Shown here piece after piece: positions 2,119 to 63,174 of a DNA stretch of 64,000 nucleotides (position 1 is the first letter of the stretch; each line of letters starts with the position of its first letter). Origin of the DNA: Dokdonia sp. 4H-3-7-5 (GTDB lineage: Bacteria; Bacteroidota; Bacteroidia; Flavobacteriales; Flavobacteriaceae); assembly GCF_000212355.1 (NCBI RefSeq), contig NC_015496.1:1736001-1800000 (forward strand). Reading direction: 5' to 3'. A program made the translations under genes and the position numbers. The notes under the pieces were generated by a model. It did not search any database, was not told the origin of the DNA, and saw only the letters and a program-made list of their open reading frames with translations.

Positions 2119-2825
2119 TTCTTAAAACTGTATTTAAAAATCCATCCTAGTATTTTAACTCCAGCCATTACTGCACCTTTTACGGTACCAGAGACTTTAG
2201 AAACACCTATGCGATTGCGATAAGTTACCGGGACTTCTATATAATTCATCTTTTTCTTTAAAACCTTGAGTTGCATTTCAACCGTCCAACCATAGGTTTT
2301 ATCTTCCATCTGTAAGGCGAGTAAGCTATCATATTTCATAGCTCTAAAAGGACCCAGATCTGTAAAGTTTGCTCCAAAGAATAGCGTCATTAATGAAGTA
2401 GCAAGCCAATTTCCAAAAATCTGAGGAGTGGTCATTGATCCGCTTTCGCGAAAGCGTTTATCTCTAGCACCTATAACCATGTCGTAATCTCCATTGATAA
2501 TAGGAGCAACTATCTTAGTAAGCTCTTCTGGGTAGTCACTATAATCTCCGTCTAAAAAGACAACGATATCTGGGCGTTTGGTAGGGTCATCAATACCCGT
2601 GGTTGCAATGTATTCCATGCCCTTGAGGCAAGCGTATCCATATCCTTTGCGTTCTTCTCTTAATACAGTAGCACCATTATCTCTAGCAACTTGTTCTGTA
2701 TTATCTGTAGATGCATTGCTTACTACAATTACTTCGCTCACTGTATGAGGAATGTCTCGTAGCACATGACCAATGGAGTCTTGCTCGTTGTAAGCTGGTA
2801 TTATTACTTTAATAAGGGGAGTCAT
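2115..2825 (-). CDS. Family 2 glycosyltransferase, dolichyl-phosphate mannose synthase-like
   Basis: I start this protein at the ATG at 2823-2825, giving 236 residues beginning MTPLIKVIIPAYNEQ. An upstream in-frame ATG at 2868 would run into the preceding gene and adds no conserved sequence. The fold is a GT-A domain: IIPAYNE at residues 8-14, and the metal-binding DGDYSD at about 92-97. There is no long membrane region, as in DPM1-type enzymes that load a hexose onto a polyprenyl phosphate. Only 4 nt separate it from the upstream MORN gene, and it overlaps the downstream GT2 gene by 4 nt. A copy of the genome-wide palindrome (2441-2456) lies inside the frame and codes for the RFRES stretch near residue 124, in a predicted surface loop. 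The sugar donor is unknown. Confidence 0.85.
   Translation of the reverse strand: MTPLIKVIIPAYNEQDSIGHVLRDIPHTVSEVIVVSNASTDNTEQVARDNGATVLREERKGYGYACLKGMEYIATTGIDDPTKRPDIVVFLDGDYSDYPEELTKIVAPIINGDYDMVIGARDKRFRESGSMTTPQIFGNWLATSLMTLFFGANFTDLGPFRAMKYDSLLALQMEDKTYGWTVEMQLKVLKKKMNYIEVPVTYRNRIGVSKVSGTVKGAVMAGVKILGWIFKYSFKK
2441..2456. repeat. Iterated palindrome, perfect 16-mer, within GT2 coding sequence
   Basis: Perfect CGCTTTCGCGAAAGCG. It is read in the frame that gives RFRES on the minus strand. Confidence 0.95.
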
Positions 2826-2829
2826 AACG

Positions 2830-3312
2830 CTAGTAGAGTGATACATCAGGATTATCGCGGCGGAAATCACGTATGCTTGTCCACGCGCCTTTTAATTGAT
2901 TCTTCTCGTATTTTTCTACCTTAAAAAGTTTTTTGTTTTTATATACGAGACAGAAACCATGTAAATGATTGTCAACGTACTGGCTTTTTCTAGTTTCTTG
3001 GCGCGCAAGGTCGTAAAAAATCCACCAATTTTGGGCAATTCCGTCCTCATAATGCCCTTCCTTGGTTAGTTTTCCTTGATTATCATAATAATGCCAGTAT
3101 TTTGATTTCTTATTGGTTTGATAGTGTCCCTCGGCGGCGATGGTTCCATTCTCGTGATAAAATTTCCAGTATTTTACCTTTTGCTCTCCCATGATCCATC
3201 CTTCTGCTTTAATGGTGCCATCATCATGATATTGCTTGCTATACATTCTCGGCTCTGGGAGTGAAAATGCTATAAAAGCTAGTAAGATCGTACTAATTGC
3301 CTGCGCTGTCAT
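2830..3312 (-). CDS. Secreted MORN-repeat-variant protein (YwqK-like)
   Basis: A 160-residue protein with a hydrophobic N terminus (about residues 4-20) that could be a signal peptide. It then carries three or more tandem units of roughly 23 residues with the pattern GTIKAEG.....KYWKFY, GTIAAEGHY....KYWHYY and GKLTKEGHY....NWWIFY. These match the MORN_2 variant repeats that annotation pipelines often label YwqK-family antitoxin. That label is weak: no toxin gene is adjacent, and such proteins are common in Bacteroidota envelopes. It is the first gene of the minus-strand glycosyltransferase operon, 4 nt before the DPM-like gene. A role in envelope or glycan organisation is a guess from context only. 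It is divergently arranged with the oxidoreductase at 3380, with 67 bp between them. Confidence 0.75.
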   Translation of the reverse strand: MTAQAISTILLAFIAFSLPEPRMYSKQYHDDGTIKAEGWIMGEQKVKYWKFYHENGTIAAEGHYQTNKKSKYWHYYDNQGKLTKEGHYEDGIAQNWWIFYDLARQETRKSQYVDNHLHGFCLVYKNKKLFKVEKYEKNQLKGAWTSIRDFRRDNPDVSLY

Positions 3313-3379
3313 ACGAGTGTTAGACGAGAGAAATTTGAGGCACTAACATAGAACACGTATTTTTAATGAAAAATATCTA

Positions 3380-4492
3380 ATGAATCTAAGTTTTTGGGAG
3401 CGAGAATCGTGGTTTAATAATGTAGACTACACCATTATAGGTAGCGGTATCGTGGGATTAATGTGTGCAATACGCTTACGCGAAAAAGATGCCAACTCAA
3501 AAATAGTTATTCTAGAAAAAGGTTTACTTCCTAATGGGGCGAGTACAAAAAATGCTGGTTTTGCGTGCTTTGGAAGTATTTCAGAATTACTAGAAGATCT
3601 CAAAACACACTCAGAAGAAGAGGTGATCTCTCTAGTTAAACAACGTGTGGAAGGTTTACAACTGTTGAGAAGTATGCTTGGAGATGAACAAATAGACTAT
3701 CAAGAGCATGGAGGTTATGAGCTTTTCACTTCAAATGATACCGTGCTGTATGAGGAATGTGTACAGAATCTAGCTCACATAAATAAGTTGCTATTTCCTA
3801 TCTTTAATAAAGAAGTGTACACGCTGCAGGATGATGCATTTGGTTTTGATGGTATAGAAAATAAGGTGATTTTTAATAATTGCGAAGGCCAGATAGACAC
3901 GGGAATGATGATGAGTGCACTTCTCAAACTCGCACATGCTAAAGGGATACTCATATTAAATAGTATGACCGTAAACTCTTATAAAGAAGAAGCCGAGAGC
4001 GTAGCAGTTGTAGCTGCTCATAATACATTTTATACAAAAAAGCTCTTTATTGCTACTAATGGTTTTGCAAGCACGCTTGGACTTAGCGAAGTAAAACCAG
4101 CGAGAGCACAGGTGTTAATCACACATCCTATTCCAGAACTCAAAGTGAAAGGCACTTTTCATCTCGATAAAGGATACTATTACTTTAGAAATATAAATAA
4201 CAGAATTCTTCTAGGCGGAGGGAGAAATCTAGATATACAAGGAGAGGAAACGATGGTGATGTCTCAAACAGCACTTATTCAAAATGAATTAGAACGACTG
4301 CTCGCTGAGGTGATTTTACCTAATACCCCTCATACTATAGATCACAGATGGAGTGGTATCATGGGTGTGGGTATTCAAAAAAAGCCCATCGTTAAGAAAA
4401 TATCTCAACATACTTATTGCGGAGTACGACTAGGAGGAATGGGAGTTGCTATAGGAAGTACCATAGGTAAGAATCTCGCAGATTTAATTTAG
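3380..4492 (+). CDS. FAD-dependent oxidoreductase, DAO family
   Basis: A 370-residue protein of the glycine/D-amino acid oxidase (DAO, PF01266) type. The N-terminal dinucleotide-binding motif is seen as DYTIIGSGIVGL (about residues 16-27), followed by an acidic strand end (ILEKG). The FAD-proximal motif GASTKNAGFACFGS follows, where substrate-contacting residues lie in this family. The C-terminal part ends in GGMGVAIGSTIGKNLADL, the usual second FAD-contact region. There is no signal peptide, so it is expected in the cytoplasm, where it would oxidise the C-N bond of an amino acid or amine. The substrate cannot be read from the sequence. It stands alone, with no obvious operon partners. Confidence 0.85.
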   Translation: MNLSFWERESWFNNVDYTIIGSGIVGLMCAIRLREKDANSKIVILEKGLLPNGASTKNAGFACFGSISELLEDLKTHSEEEVISLVKQRVEGLQLLRSMLGDEQIDYQEHGGYELFTSNDTVLYEECVQNLAHINKLLFPIFNKEVYTLQDDAFGFDGIENKVIFNNCEGQIDTGMMMSALLKLAHAKGILILNSMTVNSYKEEAESVAVVAAHNTFYTKKLFIATNGFASTLGLSEVKPARAQVLITHPIPELKVKGTFHLDKGYYYFRNINNRILLGGGRNLDIQGEETMVMSQTALIQNELERLLAEVILPNTPHTIDHRWSGIMGVGIQKKPIVKKISQHTYCGVRLGGMGVAIGSTIGKNLADLI

Positions 4493-4575: not shown

Positions 4576-5034
4576 ATGAATCATCAAGAAATAAAGTTAG
4601 AACTCTTTACAAAGTGCACGCAGTGGATTGTAAACCGTCGCAATAAAGTAGAAACTGTGATTGCAGATATTATGGAATCGCTAGAAGACGAGACTAAAAG
4701 TTCGGCGGGAGATAAGCATGAGACAGGACGAGCGATGCTACAGATTGATCGCGAGCAAGCGGGCGAGCAACTTAAAGAAATAGGGAAGATAGAAGATGCC
4801 TTATCCAAAGTTGATATCAAAGTAAAGAGTGATTACGTGCGTCTAGGTAGTGTAGTGCATACCTCTACAAATCGTTTCTTTATCTCAGTTTCGGCAGGAG
4901 AAATAAAAATAGAAGGAAGACCTTATTATGCGATAGCCCTTGCATCGCCTATGGGGCAATTATTACTGAGTAAGAAAAAAGGTGACGTAGTACGCTTTCG
5001 CGAAAGCGATATTACCATTACTTCGGTGTATTAA
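4576..5034 (+). CDS. GreA/GreB C-terminal-like protein
   Basis: A 152-residue protein. Its first 70 residues are charged and likely helical. The second half (from about residue 85) reads VRLGSVVHT...FFISVSAGEI...YYAIALASPMGQLLLSKKKGD, the pattern of the FKBP-like C-terminal domain of GreA/GreB transcript-cleavage factors. Many databases call such flavobacterial proteins 3-oxoacyl-ACP synthase, which nothing here supports. The N-terminal region lacks the conserved acidic tip I would need to claim transcript-cleavage activity, so it may be a Gre-like factor that binds RNA polymerase for another purpose. A perfect palindrome copy (4993-5008) codes for RFRES at the C-terminal edge. Its last 17 bp overlap the convergent ABC ATPase gene. 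Confidence 0.7.
   Translation: MNHQEIKLELFTKCTQWIVNRRNKVETVIADIMESLEDETKSSAGDKHETGRAMLQIDREQAGEQLKEIGKIEDALSKVDIKVKSDYVRLGSVVHTSTNRFFISVSAGEIKIEGRPYYAIALASPMGQLLLSKKKGDVVRFRESDITITSVY
4993..5008. repeat. Iterated palindrome, perfect 16-mer, within Gre-like coding sequence
   Basis: Perfect CGCTTTCGCGAAAGCG, read as RFRES nine residues before the end of the protein. Confidence 0.95.
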
Positions 5035-7035: not shown

Positions 7036-7041
7036 TAGGTA

Positions 7042-7057
7042 CGCCTTCGCGAAAGCG
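7042..7057. repeat. Iterated palindrome, one mismatch, 3' of manA
   Basis: CGCCTTCGCGAAAGCG, one change from the consensus, 6 bp after the manA stop codon. Confidence 0.85.
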
Positions 7058-7129: not shown

Positions 7130-7145
7130 CCTAAATTCATAAACT

Positions 7146-8740: not shown

Positions 8741-9406
8741 CTATAATTTCCCAAAGCTAAATCCAGCATTTTCAAAATACTCAATAACTTTAGGAAGTGC
8801 ATACTGCAAGTTGTTAAATGCTTTTACACTGTCGTGAAAAACGATAATATCTCCATCCCGGGCAGTATCAATTACATTGCGTAAACATGCTTCTGGAGTA
8901 ATACTTGACTCCCAGTCATAAGCAACTATACGATACATTACGATTTTATATCCCATCTTGCGCAATGCAGATGCCTGCTTACGCTTTACTTTTCCATATG
9001 GTGGTCTAAATAGGGGGCTTGATAATGTATTAGGATTACCTTCTATATGCTTGCTCATCTCAAGTTCGGCGAGCTGTGTGTTTGTTAAATACGTCTCGTT
9101 ATCCGTTTTCCAACCCTGAAGGTGATTGTAGGTGTGATTCCCTACGGAGTGACCTCCAGCAAGGATTCTTTTAAACACATCAGGGTGCTTACGCACATTA
9201 TCTCCTATGCAAAAAAAAGTAGCGTGAATGGGTTTGTCTCGCTTTCGCGAAAGCGTATCCAACACAAAATCTGTCACCTCAGGAATAGGTCCGTCGTCAA
9301 AAGTGAGATAGATAGTTTTCTTACCTTTTGGTTTGCTCCACAAATACCAACTTGGATACAACCAGGTAACTATGGAAGGTACTCGAGATGGTTTTAAAAA
9401 GCTCAT
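8741..9406 (-). CDS. Polysaccharide deacetylase, NodB homology domain
   Basis: A 221-residue carbohydrate esterase family 4 protein. The catalytic and metal-binding motifs are complete: TFDDGP (35-40, catalytic base and metal Asp), HSVGNHTYNH (86-95, metal histidines), RPPYGK (about residue 144) and a late FHDS histidine. The family removes N-acetyl groups from peptidoglycan or N-acetylglucosamine polymers in the periplasm or at the surface. No clear cleavable signal peptide is seen, though the first 25 residues are fairly hydrophobic and may anchor it. Its start codon directly follows the stop of the terC-like gene, so the two are probably co-transcribed. A palindrome copy (9240-9255) codes for TLSRKR after the first motif, in a region that varies in length in this family. 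Confidence 0.9.
   Translation of the reverse strand: MSFLKPSRVPSIVTWLYPSWYLWSKPKGKKTIYLTFDDGPIPEVTDFVLDTLSRKRDKPIHATFFCIGDNVRKHPDVFKRILAGGHSVGNHTYNHLQGWKTDNETYLTNTQLAELEMSKHIEGNPNTLSSPLFRPPYGKVKRKQASALRKMGYKIVMYRIVAYDWESSITPEACLRNVIDTARDGDIIVFHDSVKAFNNLQYALPKVIEYFENAGFSFGKL
9240..9255. repeat. Iterated palindrome, perfect 16-mer, within deacetylase coding sequence
   Basis: Perfect CGCTTTCGCGAAAGCG, read as TLSRKR on the minus strand. Confidence 0.95.
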
Positions 9407-10359: not shown

Positions 10360-13300
10360 TTAGTTTAAATCTGTTATTACTTCGTCTCTTACGCTATCTT
10401 GGGCTGGAATCTCTATAGATGGTTCTGGTAGTGTTTCAAGTAATTCTTGAGGAACTTCTTCTGTTTCATCATCATCGCCCATTAAATATGGGAACGTGCG
10501 CATGTAGTTATCAAAGACTTTTGCTTCTTTTTCAAACAGTTCTCTATCATCATTTATAATAAGAAGGTCTACAAGACTTCTATACTTCTCAATATTAGTC
10601 AAGATATCTTCATAATATTTATATTGAAGTTCTTCATCTACCTTACTAAAGTAAGTTAGTTGCTCTTGATACTTAGCAGCAACTTCTTTCCATATTTCTT
10701 GAGCACGTTGCGTTTCTCCTATCTCATAATATCCAGTGATATATGGTTCTACAAGCGTGTAAAACTCAAAGATGTCTACTGGCATTTTTTCCATCGCGAG
10801 ATCCATGATTTTCTTAGCCTTTTCTGGCTTGTTTTCTGCGAGAAGTTGCTCCACTAGACGTGCCATGTTACCTCTATAAGTAATCGCATTAGTGCGCGTC
10901 TCACGATCGTGATAGATATCTGGGCTTCCGCTGTTGCCCCAATACCATTTCTTTACGATGTCATACATCTTATCTGCATCTACGCGACCCATATCATAAG
11001 GATTACGAGGATCGATAGGAGTTCTTATTGGGATAAGCTTATAAGCTACGCCATCCAGTTGCAGGTAGTCCTTCATCCATAAGTAGTCATCATCACCAAA
11101 GCTTCCTCCAGTAAAGTAAATAGGTCGTTCCCAGTTATTGCTAGCAATAATGTCTAGCATAAGCAGCCTATTTTTGTAAAGAACATTCCCTTTAAGTTCA
11201 ATGTCTATGTATGGTACAATGCTATCTGCATCATCCATAGGGACAATCTTGTTCTTGAGTACGGTTTCCTTATTTACTGGAATGCGCACCTTTTTACTAG
11301 GGAAGGTGTTAAAAAACTGTCCTTTTGCATATTCTACCTTTGTTCTAGGATCATCACTAGCAACAAAACTCATCCATTGCGAGATAGGAATAATAGAGTC
11401 TTTGGTTTCTTGATAAAACAGGGCTTCTCTATTGTCTGCCGCATACTTGTCGTGTGTAAGCGAGCTAGGTACCGGTGGACTCTTGTATGCCGCTCTCTTC
11501 ATCTGGTCGTAGTACCAATCTGTATTAATCAAACTAGTATTTACAATACGCACATCAGTACGATATCCTTCAATTTCTTGAGCATACCAAAGAGCAAACG
11601 TATCGTTGTCACCTATTGTAAATATAATGGCATTCTCATCTACAGAGTCTAGATACTTCTTTGCCATGGCAAGAGCCGTTTTCCTTCCTGAGCGATCATG
11701 GTCATCCCAGTTTTGTGAGGCAAGCAATACAGGAGCAGCTAGTAAACATATAACAGCCACAATAGGCATTGCTATTTTAGGTTTTATAAAATCTTTTACA
11801 ATATCAAATAGCGCATACACTCCAAAGCCTATCCACATCGCAAAGACATAGAAGGATCCCACTAGCGCATAATCACGCTCACGAGGTTCAAAAGCACGTT
11901 CATTTAGATATACCTTTAATGCAAGACCTGTAAATAAGAAGAAGACTAGTAATACTGCAAAACGTTTCCAGTCTTTACTTGCGTGAAAAAGTAGGCCTAA
12001 TAATCCAAGTAATAGGGGAAGGAAGAAATAGGTGTTGCGAGCTTTATTATCGGCAACATCAGACGGTAGGTTGTCTTGTGGTCCTAAGAACATACTGTCA
12101 ATAAAGCCTATTCCAGAAATCCAATTTCCGTTAAAGTCATCGCCTTTACCTTGTATGTCGTTCTGTCTTCCTACAAAGTTCCACATGAAGTAACGCCAGT
12201 ACATATACCCAAACTGGAAGCTAAACATGTAATTCATGTTTGCTCCAAAGGATGGTTTTTCTACATCTAGGTAACTTCCTATCTGGCTCTTTAAAAAGGC
12301 ATCATAACCTTCATAATTTACCTTTCCGTCTCTGTAATCTATCTTGAACTGCGTTACAACATCTTGAAGATACTGGCGATCTTCCTCTGGCATATCAGGA
12401 TCATACTTGATACTGAATTTTAAAGGACCCGTATACTGCATGTAATTTGCATTATTTTCTGGGCTCCACATTCTTGGTAAGATAGCATTATGCGCATCAT
12501 CAAGATTTTGCTTTGCATTACGCCACTCATTTACCACTACATATTTTCCAAGAGCTTCGTCTTTCTCGTATAACTTCGGTTTGTCGAGATATGGTGTATC
12601 TGGATCTAGCCCAGAATAGTCTGAGGTAAATTGAGGTCCATAAAAGAGTTTTGTTTCGGCATATTGCTCACGGTTGTAATAAGCAAGTAATGATCGAGCA
12701 TTTGACGGATTGTTCTCATTAATAGTTGTACCAGCATTTGCACGTATAGGCAACATCATCCAGCTAGAAAAACCTATAAAGATGTAAAGCATGCAAAGTA
12801 GCATGGTGTTAAGGAGTGGTTTGTTACGCTTTCGCGAAAGCTTAAATCCGTAAACAAATAACCCTACAAGAAGTAAGCCTGCTATAATGGTACCACTATT
12901 AAAAGGTAGTCCCATAGAGTTTACGAAGAATACTTCTAAGTACCCAAATAATGATAATGTATAAGGTAATAGTAGCTTAAAAATAAACATCAAGATGGCT
13001 ACAACGATAACCAGTGCTATGATGAGATTTTTGGCAGTTACTTTTTCTGTGTTCTTGAAGAAATAGAGTAAGCCAATTGCCGGGATGGTAAGTAATCCCA
13101 TAAAGTGAATACCAAAGGATAGACCTACAATAAAAGATATCAATATGAGCCAGCGATTACCTCTAGGTTCATGCATGTCACGTTCCCATAATAACCCAAG
13201 ATAGAATAAAAGAGAGAGTACCACTGCTGCTGGGGCATATACCTCTGCTTCTACGGCATTAAACCAAAAGCTATCTGTAAAAGCAAATGCAAGCGCACCT

Positions 13301-14506: not shown

Positions 14507-14522
14507 CGTTTTCGCGAAAGCG
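14507..14522. repeat. Iterated palindrome variant, intergenic
   Basis: CGTTTTCGCGAAAGCG, one mismatch; the left arm carries the TTTT form seen in the asymmetric variants. It lies 9 bp after a stop codon. Confidence 0.88.
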
Positions 14523-17967: not shown

Positions 17968-17983
17968 CGCTTTCGCGAAAGCA
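17968..17983. repeat. Iterated palindrome, one end mismatch, intergenic
   Basis: CGCTTTCGCGAAAGCA. It lies in the 279-bp space (17779-18057) between the SLC13 transporter start and the usp gene stop. Nothing else is recognisable there. Confidence 0.92.
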
Positions 17984-19581: not shown

Positions 19582-20814
19582 ATGGAGAATTTAGCGTTAA
19601 TCGATTCTTTTTCAGAATTCAAGGACGATAAATTAATAGATCGTGTAACCTTAATGGCCATCTTAGAAGAGGTGTTCAGAAGTACGTTAAAGAGACGTTT
19701 TGGTAGTGATGATAACTTTGATATTATTATAAATCCTGATAAAGGAGATCTTGAGATCTGGCGTAACCGTGTGGTTGTGGCAGATGGTGAGGTTGAAGAT
19801 GATAATGAAGAGATTTCATTAACTGATGCTCGCAAGATTGAGGAAGATTTTGAAGTAGGAGAAGATGTTTCTGAGGAGGTAAAGCTTTTTGACTTAGGTC
19901 GACGTTCTATTTTGGCATTGCGTCAAAATTTAATTAGCAAGATTCACGAGCATGATAATACTAACATTTACAAGCAGTTTAAAGAGCTTGAAGGTGAGTT
20001 GTATACTGCAGAGGTGCATCATATAAGACATAGAGCGATCATTTTACTTGATGATGATGGAAACGAGATTATCTTGCCAAAAGATCGTCAGATTCCTTCA
20101 GATTTTTTCCGTAAAGGAGAAAATGTACGTGGAGTAATTGAGAGCGTAGAGTTGAAGGGTAATAAGCCTTCAATTGTTATGTCTCGTACATCCCCATTGT
20201 TCTTAGAAAAATTATTTGAGTCTGAAATACCAGAAGTTTTTGATGGTTTAATTACTGTCAAGAATGTTGTGCGTATACCAGGGGAGAAGGCAAAAGTAGC
20301 AGTAGACTCTTATGATGATCGTATTGATCCAGTAGGAGCCTGTGTAGGTATGAAGGGTTCTCGTATTCACGGTATTGTACGTGAGTTAGGAAATGAGAAT
20401 ATTGATGTGATAAATTACACAACAAACCTTAACTTGTATATTACTAGAGCTTTAAGCCCTGCGCGTATTACAAGTATTAAGATTAATGAGGAAAATAAAA
20501 CCGCACAAGCAGTTCTTAAACCTGAAGAGGTTAGTAAGGCTATAGGTCGCGGTGGTCATAACATTCGTTTGGCCGGACAGCTTACTGGATATGAGATTGA
20601 CGTTTACAGAGAAGGGGTAGAGGAAGACGTTGAGCTTACAGAATTTTCAGATGAGATAGAAGCGTGGGTGATTGAAGCTTTCGCGAAAATTGGTCTTGAT
20701 ACCGCAAGAAGCGTATTAGAGCAAGATGCAGAAGATCTAGTACGTCGTACAGATTTAGAAGAAGAAACAGTTCTTGATGTGATGAGAATCCTTAAGGCAG
20801 AATTTGAAGAATAG
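19582..20814 (+). CDS. nusA: Transcription termination/antitermination factor NusA
   Basis: A 410-residue NusA, shorter than the 495-residue E. coli protein because the C-terminal acidic repeats are reduced; this is usual in Bacteroidota. The N-terminal RNA polymerase-binding domain spans about 1-130, an S1 domain about 135-200, then KH1 (GACVGMKGSRIHGIVRELGNE) and KH2 (AIGRGGHNIRLAGQLTGYEI). It modulates pausing, intrinsic termination and antitermination. A degenerate palindrome at 20677-20688 encodes EAFAK in the C-terminal part. It is located between rimP and infB, as in most bacteria. Confidence 0.96.
   Translation: MENLALIDSFSEFKDDKLIDRVTLMAILEEVFRSTLKRRFGSDDNFDIIINPDKGDLEIWRNRVVVADGEVEDDNEEISLTDARKIEEDFEVGEDVSEEVKLFDLGRRSILALRQNLISKIHEHDNTNIYKQFKELEGELYTAEVHHIRHRAIILLDDDGNEIILPKDRQIPSDFFRKGENVRGVIESVELKGNKPSIVMSRTSPLFLEKLFESEIPEVFDGLITVKNVVRIPGEKAKVAVDSYDDRIDPVGACVGMKGSRIHGIVRELGNENIDVINYTTNLNLYITRALSPARITSIKINEENKTAQAVLKPEEVSKAIGRGGHNIRLAGQLTGYEIDVYREGVEEDVELTEFSDEIEAWVIEAFAKIGLDTARSVLEQDAEDLVRRTDLEEETVLDVMRILKAEFEE
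20677..20688. repeat. Iterated palindrome, asymmetric variant, within nusA
   Basis: GCTTTCGCGAAA followed by AT, the same right-arm form (GAAAAT) as the variant at 56513. It encodes EAFAKIG and may be coincidence in a conserved gene. Confidence 0.55.
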
Positions 20815-23746: not shown

Positions 23747-23762
23747 CGCTTTCGCGAAAGTG
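23747..23762. repeat. Iterated palindrome, one mismatch, immediately after infB terminator
   Basis: CGCTTTCGCGAAAGTG. The repeat is placed directly behind the terminator T-run. Confidence 0.88.
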
Positions 23763-24015: not shown

Positions 24016-24411
24016 TTAGTCGCGACCATCTGGTTTGAAGATGAAAGCGCTTGGAAAGTCTTTCTTAATTTCCATAAGAGCTCTGTCTGCCTCGCGTCTG
24101 TTTCTAAAACTTCCTATCCATACTTTATAGTTAGGGGTTTCGTGCTTTATAGACGAAGACCACGTCCCTACACGATTTCTGTATTTTTTTAATGTTGAGC
24201 TTGCAGTATTTAAGCTTCCAGAATAGAGTTGTATTTTATATCTATCTGTTAACTTACCTTCTTTTTCAAGACTGCTTTTTAAATCAAGAAGTTCTGTGAT
24301 TCTTTCATCTTGATTTATAGTAGATTGTGCGGTTTGTGCTTTCGCGAAAGCGAATGAAAACACAGCGGCGGCTAGTGTTAATTGTATGTTTTTAAACGTA
24401 ATGCCGTTCAT
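24016..24411 (-). CDS. Secreted SPOR-domain protein
   Basis: A 131-residue protein with a signal peptide (about residues 1-26, hydrophobic core LTLAAAVFSF) and a SPOR domain from about residue 55 to the end. The domain shows KIQLYSGSLNTASSTLKKYRN and the second repeat YKVWIGSFRNRREADRALMEI. SPOR domains bind denuded septal peptidoglycan, so a role at the division site or in cell wall metabolism is likely. A palindrome copy (24337-24352) encodes FAFAKAQ exactly at the end of the signal peptide, so the repeat appears to supply the Ala-x-Ala cleavage site. The gene stands alone, divergent from the actA operon. Confidence 0.85.
   Translation of the reverse strand: MNGITFKNIQLTLAAAVFSFAFAKAQTAQSTINQDERITELLDLKSSLEKEGKLTDRYKIQLYSGSLNTASSTLKKYRNRVGTWSSSIKHETPNYKVWIGSFRNRREADRALMEIKKDFPSAFIFKPDGRD
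24337..24352. repeat. Iterated palindrome, one mismatch, in a signal peptide
   Basis: TGCTTTCGCGAAAGCG. On the minus strand it is read as FAFAKA at the signal peptidase site of the SPOR protein. Confidence 0.92.
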
Positions 24412-36576: not shown

Positions 36577-36592
36577 CGCTTTCGCGAAAGCG
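36577..36592. repeat. Iterated palindrome, perfect 16-mer, behind the act-cox terminator
   Basis: Perfect CGCTTTCGCGAAAGCG, 6 bp after the terminator T-run. Confidence 0.95.
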
Positions 36593-37825: not shown

Positions 37826-39151
37826 ATGCCAGATAAAATTCCAGCAGTATCCGTGTTTAAATTTCTTGCAAATGCAGGAAGTATCCTCAAAAACCCTCTG
37901 CCTTTTCATAAAGAAAACTTTGAGTCAAAAGGTGATACTTTTAAACTAAAGCTTGGTTTTGGTAATGATGTCGTCTTTTCAAGAGATCCGGAATTTGCCA
38001 AATATGCACTTCAGAAAAATCAGCGGAATTATAGTAAATCACCTATCCAAACTAAAGACTTAGCAAAATATGTTGGGGAAGGTCTGCTTACGGCAGAAGG
38101 TGACCACTGGAAAAAACAACGTAAACTCATACAGCCAGCCTTTCATAAAAAGCAACTAGCTCAATTACTTGATGCAATGCATGAGGTAATTAAAGAAGAG
38201 CTATTGCGTATTGAAACGCATAAGCCTTTTGATGTATTTGAAGTTTTTAATGATCTTGCATTTATGACTGTCGTTAAGGCATTGTTTAAAACAGATGTAG
38301 ATCGAGATAAAATTAATAGATTGCAGCACATCACAGAGCAGGCACAAAAGATGCTTGTAAAAGAACTGCGCCAGCCATTTAAGGCATGGTATTTTAAATA
38401 TGGTGGTGCTATAGATAAGCATCTTGCTCTTACAAAAGAGGCGAGGGTGATTCTAAAGGAACTCGTAAAAGAGCGCAAAGACAGCGGTGACAAGCCAGGT
38501 GATTTACTTGATATGCTGCTAGATTCTCAATATGAAGATGGTGGGTTTATGGACAATAAACAGCTTATTGATGAAATTCTCATTTTATTTTCGGCGGGTC
38601 ATGAGACTACCTCAAATGCACTAACTTTTACAGCAGAGCTGCTTGCTAGAAATCCTATCTGGCAAGATAAAATTTATGAAGAATACGCTTTCGCGAAAGC
38701 GAACTCCACAAACCTTAATGAGTTTTTAAGACATTGTACCATTACCAAGCAAGTGCTGGAGGAAACCATGCGTATGTATCCACCGGCATATTTTATAGAT
38801 CGAGTGAATATTGAAGATGATGATCATAACGGAATGGAGGTTCCTGCAGGTTCTAACTTATTGTTTTCTGTGATAGAGATACATAAGCATAAGGACTTTT
38901 GGGAACGAGCAGATCAATTTGATCCTACGAGGTTTGATGATAACGCAGGGATGAAACATCCGGCATATTTTCCTTTTGGCGCAGGACCTAGAATGTGTAT
39001 AGGGAATAATTTTGCAATGTATGAAATGATCTTAGCTATTACAGAAATGGTTAGTATGTATAAGATTACCCCAAAAAACACACCTATTGAAATTTTACCG
39101 CTTATTACCTTAAAGCCTAAAAATGCGTTGCTAGAATTTATACCAAGATAG
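37826..39151 (+). CDS. Cytochrome P450
   Basis: A 441-residue soluble P450. The I-helix oxygen-binding motif is [10 protein letters not shown] (about residues 252-261), the K-helix ExxR is seen in EETMRMYPP, and the haem-thiolate loop is [16 protein letters not shown], with Cys as the fifth ligand. It resembles the CYP102/CYP4-like bacterial P450s found in flavobacteria, which often hydroxylate fatty acids or carotenoids. No ferredoxin or reductase gene is close, so the redox partner and substrate are unknown. A palindrome copy (38686-38701) encodes YAFAKAN between the I and J helices. queG begins 2 bp after the stop. Confidence 0.93.
38686..38701. repeat. Iterated palindrome, perfect 16-mer, within P450 gene
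   Basis: Perfect CGCTTTCGCGAAAGCG, read as AFAKA in the J-helix region. Confidence 0.95.
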
Positions 39152-43016: not shown

Positions 43017-44865
43017 TATACAACATACGCTAGATCTCCTGCTTTTGCAAGAAGATACAGATGGCGATAAGAAAATCACGGTAGAAGATAAGGGGCCTAG
43101 ATCTTTTGAAATAGACTTGTTTGAGGATAATAACGCTTTCGCGAAAGCGTACCACATACAAGGAACATATCATCTTTCAAATTTTTTACAAGAGCTAGCC
43201 TTAGAAATGTCACAAGGCAAAAACGAAGCAGAAATTCCATTGTGGAAGATTGAAGAATTACCCACAGACCGCATTAATCGAATGATACGAGATTACTTCT
43301 GGGATGATCTCACGCGAACAATCGATAAGAAAGGGCTTTCAAAAATCCTCACAGATACAAAAGCCGGAGACTCCGTGCAGCGCATGTATGTACCAGTAAC
43401 AGATGAGCAAGGTGTTGCTTACTATTCTTCATTAAAGAAAGATTTTCCTAACCTAGAGGTGGTTATACTTCCCAGGGAAATTACTCCAGAGTATGTGAAG
43501 TCAATAAATAGTAAGCCGGGTATTTTATCTCTAGGCTTAGAAAACCAACAAGGTATTCCGTTTGTAGTTCCAGGTGGTCGTTTTAATGAAATGTATGGTT
43601 GGGATAGTTATTTTGAAGGAGTAGGATTATTATTAGATAACAGAGTAGATCTTGCAAAGGCAATGATTGATAATTTTTGCTATCAAATAACTCATTACGG
43701 TAAAATTTTAAATGCAAATCGTAGCTACTATCTTACTAGAACACAACCGCCATTTCTTACTTCATTTATAAGGGAGACTTTTGAAAAGGATACTGCCTTG
43801 GGAAAAGAATGGCTTTCAAGCGTTCTCGGTATTGCAATGAAAGAATATAAAACCGTCTGGATGACTGCACCTAGGCTTACAGATAATGGACTAAACAGAT
43901 ATTATGCTCAGGGCATAGGTGTGCCACCAGAAACAGAAGAAGGGCATTTTGATGATTACCTAGCATCGTTTGCAAAGGCTTACAATTGTACGATACAGGA
44001 GTTAGTGACTAAGTATCAAGATGGCGATATACATCTTCCAGAACTAGATAACTATTTCACCCATGATAGAAGTCTTAGGGAGAGTGGTCATGATACTTCA
44101 TGGCGACTAGATAATGTATGTACAGATTTAAACACAGTTGACGTAAATAGCTTGCTTTATAAGTATGAGGCAGATTTTGCTTACCTGACTGCTACCTATT
44201 TTGAAGATTCTTTGCATGGTCATAATAGTATGTACTGGAAGCAAAAAGCTAGCAAAAGGAAAAGCCTGATGGATGCTCTATTATGGAGTGAAGAGGCGAG
44301 ACAATTCTTTGATTATAATATGTTGACAGAGAAGCAAACTCATTTTGAAAGCGCATCAAATTATCTTCCATTATGGGCAGGTATGTGTAGCGAAGAGCAA
44401 GCCCTAGCAATGAGCGAGACATTGATGGTTGAGTTAAAGGAAAAAGGAGGTGTCGCAGGTACTAGCCGAAATATGGCAGCTCAAATTCCTGAAGATGCAG
44501 TGCAAAGACAATGGGATTACCCTAATGGCTGGGCGCCACATCAAATGATGATATGGCAAGGACTTAAAAATTACGGTTTTAAAGAAGAGGTCGAAGAGCT
44601 AGCATATCGATGGTTGTGGATGATCACAAAAAATGCTGTAGATTATAATGGGGTTATTCCAGAAAAGTATGATGTAGTGAGTGCAACTCATAAGGTTTTT
44701 GCAGAGTACGGTAATGTGGGGACAGAGTTTGACTACATTACTACAAGTGGCTTTGGATGGATGAATGCTAGTTATCAATTTGGATTATCACTGCTCAATG
44801 TTGAACTTCGTAAGCAACTAGATATTCTTAGAGATCCAGAAATACTATTTATAAAAAAGCAATAA
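43000..44865 (+). CDS. Trehalase, glycoside hydrolase family 37
   Basis: A 621-residue enzyme. Both GH37 signatures are present: PGGRFNEMYGWDSYF (about residues 190-204) and QWDYPNGWAPHQ (about 505-516), where the second Asp and Trp form part of the active site. It hydrolyses trehalose to two glucose molecules. There is no signal peptide, so it should be cytoplasmic, consistent with uptake by the two transporters upstream. The ATG at 43000 overlaps the previous gene by 17 bp; no better start lies within the next 60 codons. A palindrome copy (43134-43149) encodes NAFAKAY in the N-terminal region. Confidence 0.92.
   Translation: MHFKGNIQHTLDLLLLQEDTDGDKKITVEDKGPRSFEIDLFEDNNAFAKAYHIQGTYHLSNFLQELALEMSQGKNEAEIPLWKIEELPTDRINRMIRDYFWDDLTRTIDKKGLSKILTDTKAGDSVQRMYVPVTDEQGVAYYSSLKKDFPNLEVVILPREITPEYVKSINSKPGILSLGLENQQGIPFVVPGGRFNEMYGWDSYFEGVGLLLDNRVDLAKAMIDNFCYQITHYGKILNANRSYYLTRTQPPFLTSFIRETFEKDTALGKEWLSSVLGIAMKEYKTVWMTAPRLTDNGLNRYYAQGIGVPPETEEGHFDDYLASFAKAYNCTIQELVTKYQDGDIHLPELDNYFTHDRSLRESGHDTSWRLDNVCTDLNTVDVNSLLYKYEADFAYLTATYFEDSLHGHNSMYWKQKASKRKSLMDALLWSEEARQFFDYNMLTEKQTHFESASNYLPLWAGMCSEEQALAMSETLMVELKEKGGVAGTSRNMAAQIPEDAVQRQWDYPNGWAPHQMMIWQGLKNYGFKEEVEELAYRWLWMITKNAVDYNGVIPEKYDVVSATHKVFAEYGNVGTEFDYITTSGFGWMNASYQFGLSLLNVELRKQLDILRDPEILFIKKQ
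43134..43149. repeat. Iterated palindrome, perfect 16-mer, within trehalase gene
   Basis: Perfect CGCTTTCGCGAAAGCG, read as NAFAKA at about residue 46. Confidence 0.95.
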
Positions 44866-44867: not shown

Positions 44868-45821
44868 GTGAGAAGAGAGACAGACATTATATGCGTGGGT
44901 GAGGTTTTAATAGACTTCATAGGTCACCAAAAGGAAGTGCGAATTGATCAAACTAGAGATTATCACAGGTATCTAGGTGGTAGCCCGACAAATGTGGCTA
45001 TGAATTTATCTAGATTAGGCATGAATGTAAAGCTTGCAGCCACTAGAGGTGACGATGGTCTAGGTATTTATATAGAAGAAAAACTTGAAGAGAATGGAGT
45101 GCAAACAGATCTTGTGCGAACAGATGCTGTAAATCCTACGAGTGTAATCTTTGTGTCGAAAACAACGGGAACGCCAGATTTTATTCCATACCGTTATGCA
45201 GACACAAAAATCACCGAAGATCAAATTCCAAATGAGCTCATTGAAAAGACATCCATTTTTCATACCACTGCTTTTGCATTAAGTAAAAATCCTGCTCGCA
45301 CTACTATCTTGACTAAAGCAAAGAAAGCATTTGAGGCAGGATGTACCTTGAGTATTGATCTCAATTACTCTCCACGTATTTTTCCAAAGAGAGAAAAGGC
45401 GATGGAGACTTTTAGACAATACTGTTCGTATAATCCGCTAGTGAAAATAAGCGAGGATGATATGGAGCGCTTGTTTGGAGAACGTAAATCTCATGATGAG
45501 ATATTTGATTTCTTTCATAATGATTTTGGTGTTGAGCTCGTTTGTCTCACGCTAGGTTCTGATGGGGTTAAGCTTTCGCGAAAGCGTAAAAATGAATCTC
45601 AAGAAATAATTGAACTACCAGCAGCAAGGGTAGAAAATATTCTTGACGCAACAGGAGCGGGAGATGCCTTTTGGAGCGGCTTTTTATTTGCATACATTAA
45701 AGAATATGAAATTGAACGTTGTCTTAAAGTAGCACTATCACTAGCTGCAATCAAATTACAGCATGTAGGCAGGCTTCCTCAAAACGTAGATATCTTAACG
45801 CAATTATTAGATTTTAAATAG
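44868..45821 (+). CDS. PfkB family sugar kinase (fructokinase-like)
   Basis: A 317-residue ribokinase-family protein with a GTG start, 2 bp after the trehalase stop. N-terminal motifs are CVGEVLIDFIG and YLGGSPTNVAMNLSRLG (sugar-binding Gly-Gly). The C-terminal anion hole and base are in DATGAGDAFWSGF. These proteins phosphorylate fructose, 2-keto-3-deoxygluconate or other sugars; annotation as fructokinase is likely but not certain. With trehalase upstream, glucose would be the expected product, so a partial mismatch remains. A palindrome copy (45571-45586) encodes KLSRKRK near residue 239. Confidence 0.9.
   Translation: MRRETDIICVGEVLIDFIGHQKEVRIDQTRDYHRYLGGSPTNVAMNLSRLGMNVKLAATRGDDGLGIYIEEKLEENGVQTDLVRTDAVNPTSVIFVSKTTGTPDFIPYRYADTKITEDQIPNELIEKTSIFHTTAFALSKNPARTTILTKAKKAFEAGCTLSIDLNYSPRIFPKREKAMETFRQYCSYNPLVKISEDDMERLFGERKSHDEIFDFFHNDFGVELVCLTLGSDGVKLSRKRKNESQEIIELPAARVENILDATGAGDAFWSGFLFAYIKEYEIERCLKVALSLAAIKLQHVGRLPQNVDILTQLLDFK
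45571..45586. repeat. Iterated palindrome, one mismatch, within sugar kinase gene
   Basis: AGCTTTCGCGAAAGCG, read as KLSRKR in a loop before the catalytic motif. Confidence 0.92.
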
Positions 45822-48223: not shown

Positions 48224-48238
48224 CGCTTTTGCGAAAAT
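48224..48238. repeat. Iterated palindrome, degenerate asymmetric variant (left member of a pair)
   Basis: CGCTTTTGCGAAAAT, located 11 bp after maeB. Its near-complement lies at 48358-48372. Confidence 0.65.
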
Positions 48239-48245
48239 TTGATAC

Positions 48246-48289: not shown

Positions 48290-48357
48290 TTTTGCTAATC
48301 AAATTGAGTTCGGTTATTCGTTATTATTATTAAATGGGCATGGTTTTGAGTTAGATC

Positions 48358-48372
48358 ATTTTCGCGAAAGGG
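48358..48372. repeat. Iterated palindrome, degenerate asymmetric variant (right member of a pair)
   Basis: ATTTTCGCGAAAGGG, inverted relative to 48224-48238. The pair flanks the maeB terminator. Confidence 0.65.
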
Positions 48373-56512: not shown

Positions 56513-56528
56513 CGCTTTCGCGAAAATT
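56513..56528. repeat. Iterated palindrome, asymmetric variant (left arm of an inverted pair)
   Basis: CGCTTTCGCGAAAATT, 11 bp after sprA. Its first 15 bases are the exact reverse complement of 56563-56577. Confidence 0.88.
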
Positions 56529-56561: not shown

Positions 56562-56577
56562 TATTTTCGCGAAAGCG
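56562..56577. repeat. Iterated palindrome, asymmetric variant (right arm of an inverted pair)
   Basis: TATTTTCGCGAAAGCG, 28 bp before gcvH. With the copy at 56513 it could form a 15-bp stem enclosing 35 nt. Confidence 0.88.
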
Positions 56578-59132: not shown

Positions 59133-59165
59133 AATCCCGTTGCCTCTCGCAACGGGATTTTTTGT
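59133..59165 (+). terminator. Terminator after the second tonB gene
   Basis: AATCCCGTTGC and GCAACGGGATT form an 11-bp stem with a 4-nt loop, followed by TTTTT. Confidence 0.93.
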
Positions 59166-59209
59166 GTATAAAACCCTATCTTTCGTGCGTAATTATTACG
59201 CCTACATCC

Positions 59210-61339
59210 ATGCATAAATATGTATTTCTTTTATTCATTTTCGCTACTTGTAGTCTTACCGCTCAGGTAACCACTAGTGATTATGAAAAGTATCCCGTTT
59301 TTCCAGAATGTGCCGACTTGCCAGTGAGCGAAGTTGCGGCTTGTTTTAATGAAACTTTTATTTCATTTATAATTGATAATCTTGAAGTCCCAGCAGAGGT
59401 TAAGGAGGAAAATTACGAGGGTAAGATGGTGATTTTGTTTGAAGTTACTCGTGAGGGCGCTTTTAAGCTACTGTATACAGATGCCGTCTTTGCATCACTT
59501 AAGACTTCGGCGCAAGATGTTTTCGATAAACTACCTGTAATTGATCCGGCTACATATAACGGTGAGCCTACCTATATGCAATTTACAATGCCTGTGCTGT
59601 TGCCACTATCACGTAATAAAATAGGTGAGATGAATAGTGGTGATAATGAAGGTGACGCTTTCGCGAAAGCAAAAAAAGAAACACCGCTTAAAAACCCAAT
59701 GCAGGATGAATATGACCGTATTCAAAATCAAAAATTTAATCCAGCAAATGAGTATACGAGTCAGTTGAATATTCCTTTCTCGCATCAGGTTTATAGTAGG
59801 TTTGATCAAGAGTTGAATCTTGTAGGGACTAATGCGCATACGGCAAGTAAACCTTATCTGTATCAAACTGTAAATCCATATTATAATTTTCAGGAGAAGA
59901 CAGATGCGCTCAAGAAAGAAAAGAAAACGTGGTTTGGGAGAAAATGGTCTAACGAGCATATGGTGCAAATACAAGGAGAGGATTACTGGATAACCCTAGA
60001 CCCCGCAGCCGATTTGCAATTGGGATATGAAACCGACAAGTTAAAGTCTGATAGTTTCACCTATAACAACACTCGTGCAGTTTATATTCAAGGTGGGTTA
60101 GGAAAGAAGCTCAATTTTTTTGCTGCTGTATATGAGAGTCAGGGTCGTTTTCCTCGATACTTTGATTCTTTTGCTAGATCACTAAGACCAGATGGTGGTA
60201 ATCCTGCGGTGGTGCCCGGTCGTGGTATTGCAAAGGAAGGCACAAATGGAGACTTAGACTACCCAGTAGCCGAAGGTTATATTTCATACACACCTAGCAA
60301 GTATTTTAATATTCAGCTAGGTCATGGAAAGCAGTTTATAGGAGATGGTTACAGATCGCTATTGCTTAGTGATAATGCGAGTTATTTTCCATATTTAAAA
60401 CTCAATACAACCTTTTGGAAATTTAAGTACACAAATACGTGGACATCACTGCGTGATGTGCGTCCAGAAACCACAGCAGACGGTGCTTTTAGAACCAAGT
60501 TCATGAGTAATCATTATCTAAGCTGGAACTTAAGTAAGAAACTTAATGTGGGATTTTTTGAATCTGTAATATGGGAAGATGAAAATGGAAGAGGTTTTGA
60601 TTTTAATTTCTTAAATCCTGTGATTTTTTACAGAGCAATAGAGTTCTCTACGGGTTCTCGCGGTGGTAATGCGCTTATAGGGCTAACCGGAAAGTATAAA
60701 GTGAATGATCGCGTAAATGTGTATGGGCAAGTTGTTATAGATGAGTTTTCGGCTAGTGATGTGATAGGCGGAAATCAAAGCTATAAAAACAAACAAGGCT
60801 TCCAGATAGGAGCAAAGTATTATGATGCTTTTGGAGTTAAGAATTTGACATTGCAAGGTGAGTACAGCCAAGTGCGTCCTTATGTATATTCTAATAATGA
60901 GATCCAACTTAATTATGGGCATGCAAACCAGTCGCTGGCACATCAATGGGGAGCAAATTTTAAAGAGCTTATTGGGATTGCTCGTTATGAAAGAGAACGA
61001 TGGTATGGAACAGCAAAACTTATTGTAGGAGCTCGAGGTGTTGAGATAGGAGATATCAATGAAGTATACTACGGAGGAAGTATTTATGGAAATGATGAAA
61101 ACAGGCCATCAGACGATGGGATTGCATTCTTTCAAGGAAATAAGGTTAATAGCCTGTATGCAGATCTTGAGCTAGGGTATTTAATAAACCCTGCAACCAA
61201 CTTAAAAGTATATGCAAACCCTATCTATCGTAGTGTAACCGCAGATATTCAAGATGCGCCAAATACATTTGATACCAGCACGCTGTGGCTCAACATAGGT
61301 TTTAGAACAGATTTGTTTAATTGGTATTATGATTATTAA
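59210..61339 (+). CDS. remB: RemB-like gliding motility protein
   Basis: A 709-residue secreted protein. I take the ATG at 59210, because MHKYVFLLFIFATCSLTAQ is a clean signal peptide, whereas the longer frame from 59162 starts within the terminator. The N-terminal region contains YPVFPECADLPVSEVAAC, like the cysteine motif of the two TonB proteins just upstream. From about residue 190 onward, alternating strands and SPSKYFNIQLGHGKQFIGDGYRSLLLSDN match RemB/Wzi-like outer-membrane beta barrels. In Flavobacterium johnsoniae remB lies in this same order after sprA, and mutants show reduced gliding. A palindrome copy (59656-59671) encodes DAFAKAK in the linker. Confidence 0.83.
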   Translation: MHKYVFLLFIFATCSLTAQVTTSDYEKYPVFPECADLPVSEVAACFNETFISFIIDNLEVPAEVKEENYEGKMVILFEVTREGAFKLLYTDAVFASLKTSAQDVFDKLPVIDPATYNGEPTYMQFTMPVLLPLSRNKIGEMNSGDNEGDAFAKAKKETPLKNPMQDEYDRIQNQKFNPANEYTSQLNIPFSHQVYSRFDQELNLVGTNAHTASKPYLYQTVNPYYNFQEKTDALKKEKKTWFGRKWSNEHMVQIQGEDYWITLDPAADLQLGYETDKLKSDSFTYNNTRAVYIQGGLGKKLNFFAAVYESQGRFPRYFDSFARSLRPDGGNPAVVPGRGIAKEGTNGDLDYPVAEGYISYTPSKYFNIQLGHGKQFIGDGYRSLLLSDNASYFPYLKLNTTFWKFKYTNTWTSLRDVRPETTADGAFRTKFMSNHYLSWNLSKKLNVGFFESVIWEDENGRGFDFNFLNPVIFYRAIEFSTGSRGGNALIGLTGKYKVNDRVNVYGQVVIDEFSASDVIGGNQSYKNKQGFQIGAKYYDAFGVKNLTLQGEYSQVRPYVYSNNEIQLNYGHANQSLAHQWGANFKELIGIARYERERWYGTAKLIVGARGVEIGDINEVYYGGSIYGNDENRPSDDGIAFFQGNKVNSLYADLELGYLINPATNLKVYANPIYRSVTADIQDAPNTFDTSTLWLNIGFRTDLFNWYYDY
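59656..59671. repeat. Iterated palindrome, one end mismatch, within remB
   Basis: CGCTTTCGCGAAAGCA, read as DAFAKAK at about residue 151. Confidence 0.92.
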
Positions 61340-62224: not shown

Positions 62225-62232
62225 AATTTATA

Positions 62233-63117
62233 TTATTTGTTAATCTCAATATTCTCTAAGATACTTTTATAAACAGTGCTTCTAAATTTTGGCCCAGTAA
62301 TAAAGCTCTTTGCGCTTTCTTCGTCTGTAAGATATTCAGATGTGATTGACTCCATTGCGGTTACTTCTTCAAGGGTTTTATTGCTTTCTATAGCTTTGAA
62401 AACTGAAGTGTAAACGTTTACTAGCATATCGTGATATTTTTGATAATCTGCTTTTGTTGCTAACTTTCCGTGACCAGGAATTATTTTAGTATCCTCATTG
62501 ATAAGCATAAGTCCTTTCTTTGCTGCGTCAATATCTCCCTGGATGCTTCCGCCACGGTCTGTATCTATAAAAGGGAAGTTACCGTTAAAGAAGGTGTCTC
62601 CAGTATGTAGCACATTACTCTGAGCAAAATAAACAAGCGCATCTCCGTCTGTATGTGCATTATGTACATGGGTTAAAAATACGTCATCGTCATTTTGGTA
62701 AAAAGTAGCATCTTCACTAAAAGTGATTACTGGGAGTCCCGCACTAGCCGTTTTCTCATCGGCTGCTAATCTCTTGCGTACATTATCGTGAGCTACAATC
62801 ATTGCTCCAGCGGCCTCAAAATTTAGATTTCCTCCAGTGTGGTCACCATGAAAATGAGTGTTGACCAAGAAACTCACAGGCTGGTCAGATATGGTTTTAA
62901 TGGCAGCGGTGATTTTCTTGCTCAGAGGAGCAAACTGATCGTCTATCATAAATACGCCATCTTTTCCAGTAGAGATTCCTATGTTTCCACCAGCTCCTTG
63001 AAGCATGTAGATGTGATCTGTAACTTTTTCAACAGTAATTTGTACATCGTCAAAACGTCCTTGTGCAGTAGCTGCAGCAGTTATTAGTGCGATGATAATG
63101 AGTGTAAAGTGTTTCAT
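62233..63117 (-). CDS. Periplasmic metallo-beta-lactamase-fold hydrolase
   Basis: A 294-residue protein with a signal peptide (residues 1-18, ending TAAATAQ). Zinc-binding motifs of the MBL fold are all present: HFHGDHTGGN (about residues 79-88), a histidine in the HVHNAHTDGDA stretch, the Asp of HTGDTFFNG, and IPGHGKL. The pattern resembles secreted MBL-fold proteins near quinoprotein systems more than acquired beta-lactamases. It could hydrolyse a lactone, thioester or similar substrate. Antibiotic resistance is not implied. It is divergent from the heme o synthase gene. Confidence 0.88.
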   Translation of the reverse strand: MKHFTLIIIALITAAATAQGRFDDVQITVEKVTDHIYMLQGAGGNIGISTGKDGVFMIDDQFAPLSKKITAAIKTISDQPVSFLVNTHFHGDHTGGNLNFEAAGAMIVAHDNVRKRLAADEKTASAGLPVITFSEDATFYQNDDDVFLTHVHNAHTDGDALVYFAQSNVLHTGDTFFNGNFPFIDTDRGGSIQGDIDAAKKGLMLINEDTKIIPGHGKLATKADYQKYHDMLVNVYTSVFKAIESNKTLEEVTAMESITSEYLTDEESAKSFITGPKFRSTVYKSILENIEINK

Positions 63118-63158
63118 TTTTAAGTTTTTTTATAAAGGTAGTCGTATTGATGTAGTTG

Positions 63159-63174
63159 CGCTTTCGCGAAAGCG
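63159..63174. repeat. Iterated palindrome, perfect 16-mer, intergenic
   Basis: Perfect CGCTTTCGCGAAAGCG between the divergent MBL and ctaB genes, about 30 bp upstream of the ctaB -33 element. Confidence 0.95.

Follow-up and report, generated by a model that had tools for sequence, protein, structure and literature searches.

The window studied here, a stretch of 64,000 bases at positions 1,736,001-1,800,000 of the 3,389,993-base single-contig genome of Dokdonia sp. 4H-3-7-5 (handle G000), holds genes that we named from the translations of their open reading frames (ORFs) alone, ruvB among them, and one transfer RNA, the sole result of an Rfam scan. Within and between these genes lie eight perfect copies of a 16-letter palindrome, CGCTTTCGCGAAAGCG, which is the subject of this study. 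When up to three mismatches are allowed, 20 places in the window match, compared with 0.10 expected from dinucleotide shuffles, and 0 of 100 shuffles reached 20; the original prediction had put the expectation for a random 16-mer far below one occurrence in 64 kb. Its eight perfect and eight one-mismatch copies were all recovered exactly where it had placed them. Its five degenerate copies need some revision: those at 56513 and 56562 are exact, those given as 48358 and 20677 begin one base earlier, at 48357 and 20676, and the one at 48224 was found, but with four mismatches and a broken core (CGCTTTTGCGAAAATT). A further three-mismatch match, without the core, lies at 3473. Four features described below go beyond the prediction, namely the G-poor arms, a spacing rule, the preservation of sites from one species to another, and the presence of copies on mobile DNA.

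The enrichment is not confined to the window, as the whole genome contains 505 perfect copies of CGCTTTCGCGAAAGCG and 0 of a reversed control, and the outcome that would have refuted the prediction, a lack of enrichment elsewhere, does not arise. We sampled 464 kb of G000, made up of the window and twenty 20-kb stretches (N fills about 7.5 kb of this total), where 64, 38, 18 and 19 copies have zero, one, two and three mismatches, respectively. An order-5 Markov model, trained on the same 464 kb with the motif included, expects 0.05 perfect copies, so that the palindrome stands far above Markov expectation genome-wide, as the prediction had supposed. The order-7 expectation is as high as 42 because that model has absorbed the motif itself. 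Among palindromic 14-mers, GCTTTCGCGAAAGC occurs 98 times in the sample of G000 and 129 times in that of its relative G299 (taken as D. donghaensis DSW-1), and no other occurs more than three times in either sample, runs of N aside. The palindrome includes TCGCGA and has an invariant 10-base core, TTTCGCGAAA; in one-mismatch copies the altered base is the outermost one in 27 of 38 cases in G000 and 26 of 27 in G299. Its density in G000 is 149 perfect copies per Mb, and that of the 12-mer CTTTCGCGAAAG is 232 per Mb.

The palindrome is the centre of an element of about 50 bp that has a G-poor 3' arm on both strands. In the 128 arms of the 64 perfect copies, G accounts for 5% of the bases at +3 to +16, compared with 18.6% genome-wide, and position by position it remains at 1-9% from +3 to +17 when each side is read outwards in the 5' to 3' direction. 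The mean share of C over +3 to +16 is 27%, and TAA is favoured at +1 to +3. Base composition beyond the arms is normal and served as the control, which consisted mainly of DNA 25-75 bases away; among other palindromes, one alone reached five copies (arm G 20%). The G-poor rule applies between genes as well as to coding copies, whatever their phase and on both the sense and the antisense side, and is weaker around copies with two or three mismatches. The same arm shape is found in Dokdonia (G000, G299), in G242 and in strain BBFL7, and is weak in G190. In four genomes, the A+C content of the 3' arm is 71-79% at positions 2, 3, 5, 6, 8, 9, 11 and 12 and 57-68% at positions 4, 7, 10 and 13 (about 49% in the genome), and the arms thus have a 3-base rhythm, which is clearest in Dokdonia. 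We could rule out an extended inverted repeat, as the two arms of one copy match no better than shuffled arms.

Coding and non-coding DNA were split with a simple gene caller, which left 12.6% of the sampled DNA non-coding. By this division, 57 of the 102 copies with at most one mismatch lie in genes and 45 are intergenic, a 5.5-fold higher density in non-coding DNA, which contradicts the earlier claim that gene type plays no part. Every frame is used by the 57 coding copies (RFRES, 12; LSRK, 14; AFAKA, 31), and the 44 intergenic copies that were typed (divergent gaps, 12; convergent gaps, 4) are spread over the gap types roughly in proportion to the base pairs of each. Given this use of every frame and the preference for intergenic DNA, the signal works at the level of DNA and not as protein or promoter. 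A signal-peptide motif was rejected on the same grounds, with 45 of 102 copies intergenic, even though AFAKA does occur in signal peptides. Copies also keep a distance from each other. Among the first 100 listed copies of each genome, neighbours less than 1 kb apart make up 5% in G000 (14% expected) and 2% in G299 (19% expected), a share that is significantly low in both; the spacing varies less than random placement would give, significantly in G000 (P 0.008) but not in G299 (P 0.20). Pairs closer than 500 bases number two in G000 (7.8 expected) and none in G299 (10.4 expected), and this depletion reaches about 2 kb, past which pair numbers are normal. No origin-terminus gradient was found in 20 stretches when the origin was placed by a parS-like cluster (Spearman -0.10, p 0.68).

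A comparison of positions between strains, which the original prediction had proposed, revealed that the sites are kept in place across Dokdonia relatives. All 18 aligned sites in G303 (taken as Dokd-P16; 94% identity) have an identical core, as do 18 of 18 in G301 (taken as PRO95; 90%) and 16 of 18 in G299 (79.5%), where random 10-mers reach 61%, 42% and 13.5%, respectively; corresponding values are 6 of 10 sites in G304 (78% identity; random 9%) and 8 of 10 in G313 (81%; random 15%). With core identity so far above that of random 10-mers, the sites must be kept where they are, either through selection or through some correcting process. The arms have a substitution rate against G299 of 26%, compared with 25-28% in their surroundings; as their letters change as fast as the neighbouring DNA, what is preserved is the rule and not the letters. 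Substitutions that create a G occur in arms at half the frequency seen around them against G299 (18/470 versus 91/1239) and G313 (9/232 versus 51/623), which, being close relatives, do not provide two independent tests. They are only slightly rarer against G303 (5/568 versus 20/1517) and G301 (10/542 versus 35/1427), and G304 likewise gives a slight deficit (6/164 versus 19/441). The individual copies in the window are listed in the table.

Table. Copies of the palindrome in the window, their setting and their state in related genomes, with one complete element as an example.
Position	Strand	Match	Setting	Relatives and remarks
2441..2456	.	perfect	inside ORF 2115-2870, RFRES frame	same place in G303, G301, G299
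4993..5008	.	perfect	inside ORF 4576-5034, RFRES frame	kept in G303, G301, G299
7042..7057	.	one mismatch	downstream of ORF 6064-7035	perfect in G303, G301
9240..9255	.	perfect	inside ORF 8741-9406, LSRK frame	0 G in 28 arm positions counted
12827..12842	.	one mismatch	inside ORF 10360-13683	perfect in G299
14507..14522	.	one mismatch	intergenic	
17968..17983	.	one mismatch	intergenic	
20676..20691	.	degenerate, 4 mismatches, core intact		
23747..23762	.	one mismatch	downstream of ORF 20867-23686	perfect in G299, G313
24337..24352	.	one mismatch	near start of ORF 24016-24411 (FAFAKAQ, signal-peptide-like)	perfect in G299, G313
27568..27583	.	perfect	inside ORF 26027-29098, AFAKA frame	perfect in G303, G301, G299, G304, G313
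36577..36592	.	perfect	between ORF 34699-36522 and ruvB ORF 36670-37710	near-match TGCTTTCGCGAAAGCT at same place in G190 (another genus)
38686..38701	.	perfect	inside ORF 37826-39151, AFAKA frame	perfect in G303, G301, G299, G304, G313; 0 G in 28 arm positions counted
43134..43149	.	perfect	inside ORF 43000-44865, AFAKA frame	perfect in G299, G313; unaligned in G303, G301, G304
45571..45586	.	one mismatch	inside ORF 44868-45821, LSRK frame	
48224..48239	.	degenerate, 4 mismatches, core broken		perfect at this place in G299
48357..48372	.	degenerate, 3 mismatches, core intact		perfect in G299
56513..56528	.	degenerate, 3 mismatches, core intact		perfect in G304
56562..56577	.	degenerate, 3 mismatches, core intact		
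59656..59671	.	one mismatch	inside ORF 59162-61339, AFAKA frame	perfect in G299
63159..63174	.	perfect	intergenic	perfect in G303, G301, G299, G304
38669..38718	.	whole element of about 50 bp		palindrome between a C-poor 5' arm and a G-poor 3' arm of 17 bases each

All 18 genomes of the genus Dokdonia examined carry the motif, with 138-711 copies each. In a sample of 299 genomes of the family (G000 included), 38 have at least one copy and 261 have none; at least 153 copies are present in five (G000, G206, G010, G242 and G190), 11-13 in three and 1-4 in thirty. In a phylum sample of 394 genomes the 12-mer CTTTCGCGAAAG occurs 786 times in G000 and at most 11 times in any other genome drawn. Two lineages besides Dokdonia are rich in the motif. 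In strain BBFL7 (L087), 161 kb of sequence contain 27 perfect copies; a RuvB tree places this strain together with G010 and G242 (support 98/78), which suggests Nonlabens. This tree, used to ask whether several lineages gained the motif independently and calculated from 66 of 99 rows after 33 had been removed by hand to thin Flavobacterium, Winogradskyella and others, parts Dokdonia from BBFL7, G010 and G242; a joint grouping is not rejected (approximately unbiased test, p-AU 0.055). In G190 (46% GC; L178-L179, L252-L261) we counted 9 perfect and 19 one-mismatch copies with weak arms in 240 kb, perhaps a decaying or young state of the motif.

In the low-copy genomes sampled, the motif arrives with islands. 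We collected 20 stretches around copies from 14 of the 30 family genomes with 1-4 copies, which gave 34 perfect copies with readable flanks; gene families were checked for 15 proteins, and the remainder were assigned through like sequences. The metal-efflux genes or their Fur-family regulator contain 28 of the 34 copies, the genes hit being CusA/CzcA-kind RND (resistance-nodulation-division) pumps, outer-membrane efflux proteins, heavy-metal P-type ATPases and a membrane-fusion protein. Four more lie in a gene whose best match, below the cut-off of the model, is the conjugative-transposon TraN, one lies in a helicase-like gene and one is intergenic. At most three G are present in the 28 arm positions of 30 of the 34 copies, many of which are homologous and hence not independent. 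Where metal-efflux and conjugation islands of other genera carry copies whose arms are intact, the motif serves as a sequence fingerprint and suggests that the islands stem from tag-bearing lineages. In the islands of G285 and G101 (L013:9041-9230 and L005), about 90 bases replace the inner palindrome in the signal-peptide region of an outer-membrane efflux gene, making the ORF 27 codons longer; a relative in L001 keeps the intact site.

When viral contigs were scanned, 30 of them yielded 41 stretches; 11 of these contigs have at least two copies, with a maximum of six in 37 kb. Portal, terminase, tail sheath, tape measure and capsid genes occur on three multi-copy contigs (L121, L106, L131), the portal of L121 being Mu-like, and the motif-bearing viral contigs appear to be prophage-like. 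Seven single copies in stretches of more than 50% GC have 7-12 G in their arms and look like chance matches; some AT-rich viral copies have 5-8. The isolated Nonlabens phages P12024S and P12024L (35.7 kb each, of one phage genus) contain 0 copies, and we rejected a protective role of the motif for phage DNA on the basis of these two. Both phages (L262, L263) lack any TCGCGA, perhaps through avoidance of the hexamer.

Tentatively, we interpret the element as a possible palindromic self-DNA signal of the uptake-sequence kind, which fits best with a core that looks dimer-like and is flanked by symmetric arms, with the indifference to reading frame, the preference for intergenic DNA and the exclusion zone of 1-2 kb, and with carriage on islands and some viral contigs but absence from the two phages. 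The palindrome with its core and two G-poor 3' arms would be a genome-wide address tag in double-stranded DNA, read by a putative DNA-binding factor that is probably two-fold symmetric, and would most likely mark DNA of the own kind for uptake and/or recombination, as in Haemophilus and Neisseria. Tagged fragments would be taken up or recombined preferentially, and tags would therefore accumulate by molecular drive and remain at permissive places, where more than one per 1-2 kb may be unneeded. All 16 high-copy genomes tested have ComEC, which transformation requires. Pasteurellaceae and Neisseriaceae are the families for which uptake sequences have been described (PMC1939737, PMC7811141); these sequences are evenly spaced, consist of a core and weaker flanks, and occur in genes and in excess between them (PMC1939737). 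In Haemophilus, a second site within 100 bp brings no gain and flanking tracts may aid strand separation (PMC7811141). Riemerella columbina, placed in the same family by its authors, prefers its own DNA in transformation, and no signal for this has so far been defined (PMC7965970). The Dokdonia element resembles the uptake signal sequences of Pasteurellaceae and the DNA uptake sequences of Neisseriaceae in its hundreds of spaced copies in genes and, more densely, between them, in its invariant core with weaker flanks and in being lineage-specific, and is unlike them in its palindromic form, in its two symmetric G-poor arms with a 3-base rhythm and in its sparser copies.

Several observations weigh against this interpretation. 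ComEC is equally present in genomes with no or few copies (16 of 17), and no receptor or reader protein was found. No uptake experiment on Dokdonia is known to us. The 5' arms, being T/G-rich and having a 3-base rhythm, resemble RecA-preferred DNA and not the AT tracts found in Haemophilus. A Chi-like or nucleoid-protein site would be equally compatible with the spacing, the conservation and the use of all frames. In addition, known uptake sequences are not palindromes (PMC1939737), and the copies are 4-7 times sparser than the Haemophilus mean of about 1 kb (PMC7811141).

The best argument for a role in recombination instead is provided by the T/G-rich 5' arms with their 3-base step. We consider it unlikely that the element is a bidirectional Chi-like signal, at which a helicase-nuclease coming from either side would stop or switch and RecA would load on the T/G-rich 5' arm of the strand ending there. 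The 5' arms are indeed T/G-rich on both strands (in-triplet A+C in the 3' arm being 71-79% versus about 49% in the genome), their rhythm equals the step of the RecA filament, which is 3 bases, and the sites are conserved, frame-neutral and spaced. Chi sites are likewise over-represented with T/G-rich DNA on their 5' side, and E. coli has GT-rich islands. However, the Chi sites known so far are short, lack palindromic symmetry and are recognised on single strands, whereas the Dokdonia element is symmetric and longer, its near-invariant 16-bp palindrome looks like double-strand recognition by a dimer, and most genera of the family lack it. The RecC family was found in 0 of 40 genomes tested, a result that says nothing of AddAB, which was not searched; we rejected a RecBCD-type Chi on this result, and any Chi-type enzyme here would have to be of another type, such as AddAB. 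Doubtful, too, in our view is a binding site for a lineage-specific chromosome-organising protein, be it a nucleoid, condensin-loading or division-coordinating one. A palindromic, conserved and spaced site that covers the whole chromosome with no origin-terminus gradient would suit such a protein, but most genera of the family live without the element, its carriage on metal-efflux islands and viral contigs is unexpected for a structural site, and no change in Noc or ParB explains the motif. G000 has a single ParB, as do 14 of the 16 high-copy genomes; a second match exists in G300 and G310, which are high-copy, with counterparts in 4 of 24 other genomes. G000 keeps a parS-like cluster of three matches within about 3 kb (1,345,881-1,348,910), and parS-like pairs with the same step of about 1.9 kb recur in relatives both with and without the motif, although the bare number of parS-like matches is not above control (4 versus 3 in G000). 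On the single ParB of G000 and the kept cluster we rejected ParB/Noc, and of the roles that the original prediction had allowed for, segregation in the ParB/parS manner is not supported. The element shares with parS and Noc sites its conservation and its palindromic form, of similar length, and differs from them in having more than 500 copies, in coexisting with a parS-like cluster and in the lack of a dedicated second ParB in 14 of the 16 genomes.

The comparison with HIP1, the highly iterated palindrome (HIP) of cyanobacteria, holds in so far as this is a genome-wide enriched palindrome that contains TCGCGA and varies mostly at its outermost bases, as HIP1 does in its single changes (Elhai). 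A methylation role in the manner of HIP1, with the element produced by a methyltransferase and methyl-directed repair, is very unlikely in our judgement, and this part of the original prediction is not supported. HIPs and the alternate HIPs are 5-8 bp long and reach 1000-2000 sites per Mb (Elhai), compared with 16 bp plus arms and the 149 perfect or 232 12-mer copies per Mb found here, and neither G-poor arms nor an exclusion zone of 1-2 kb is known to us as part of the HIP model. None of the three methyltransferase families searched is present in every motif-bearing genome: G000, G303 and G242 have no above-cut-off match to PF00145, PF01555 or PF02086, the 5-methylcytosine methylase family PF00145 is without a match in 9 of the 16 high-copy genomes searched for it, G000 being one of the nine, PF01555 is represented in G000 by a below-cut-off piece only, and PF02086 is absent from G000, G301, G303, G010, G242, G190 and BBFL7. 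The methylase model thus fails for these families, Type I and other methylase families not having been searched. Still less probable is a global transcription factor site or terminator, as 57 of 102 copies lie inside genes in all frames, intergenic gap types are used roughly in step with their base pairs, and the A/C-rich 3' arm has no T-run, even if copies are denser between genes. We give next to no credence to a self-copying mobile element spread by transposition, similar to repetitive extragenic palindromic (REP) sequences. Hundreds of copies and their presence on islands and viral contigs would be expected of it, but nothing beyond the base rule of the arms is shared between copies, the two arms of a copy bear no match to one another, and relatives that align at a window site but lack the copy show mostly substitutions there instead of the loss of a 50-bp unit, as seen for 20676 in G299, 45571 in G304 and 12827 in G190.

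A self-DNA signal of this kind could represent a further, independently evolved uptake or self-recognition signal, and, within the literature searched, the first in Bacteroidota and the first palindrome with symmetric, near-G-free, triplet-phased arms, a reading that we regard as rather doubtful for now. In 5.39 million open papers, preprints excluded, we found no uptake signal described for Flavobacteriaceae; titles and the starts of abstracts there gave no such element under the core TTTCGCGAAA or under Dokdonia or Nonlabens palindromes, and work on highly iterated palindromes is cyanobacterial or general in scope. The excerpt of a Dokdonia genome comparison (PMC3587595) yielded no such element under repeats, competence or methyltransferases. 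If true, the uptake reading would imply a new receptor that also steers the flow of genes among marine flavobacteria, the prophages they carry and the islands that give them metal resistance. For HIP-type palindromes the question of function is unsettled (Elhai), and a conserved 50-bp tag with hundreds of copies in culturable, sequenced marine strains with tag-free relatives makes the questions of uptake and of HIP function testable.

On the 3' side of parB, a perfect copy begins 40 bases past the end of the gene in both G000 and G299 (L274:9686-10643, L275:9806-10757). The longest gaps between listed perfect copies contain giant ORFs of 3344, 4431 and 5060 amino acids (L270:3-10034, L272:5930-19222, L273:3128-18307). 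We rejected the idea that long gaps are fresh foreign DNA, as a 33-kb gap in G000 and a 38-kb gap in G299, both with giant ORFs among their contents, still hold one-mismatch copies. In the 33-kb gap, two ORFs with a near-identical start sequence (L271:3298-4152 and 6554-7768) look like copies of one mobile gene, and in G299 a pair of ORFs (653 and 318 amino acids) beside a giant ORF occurs twice.

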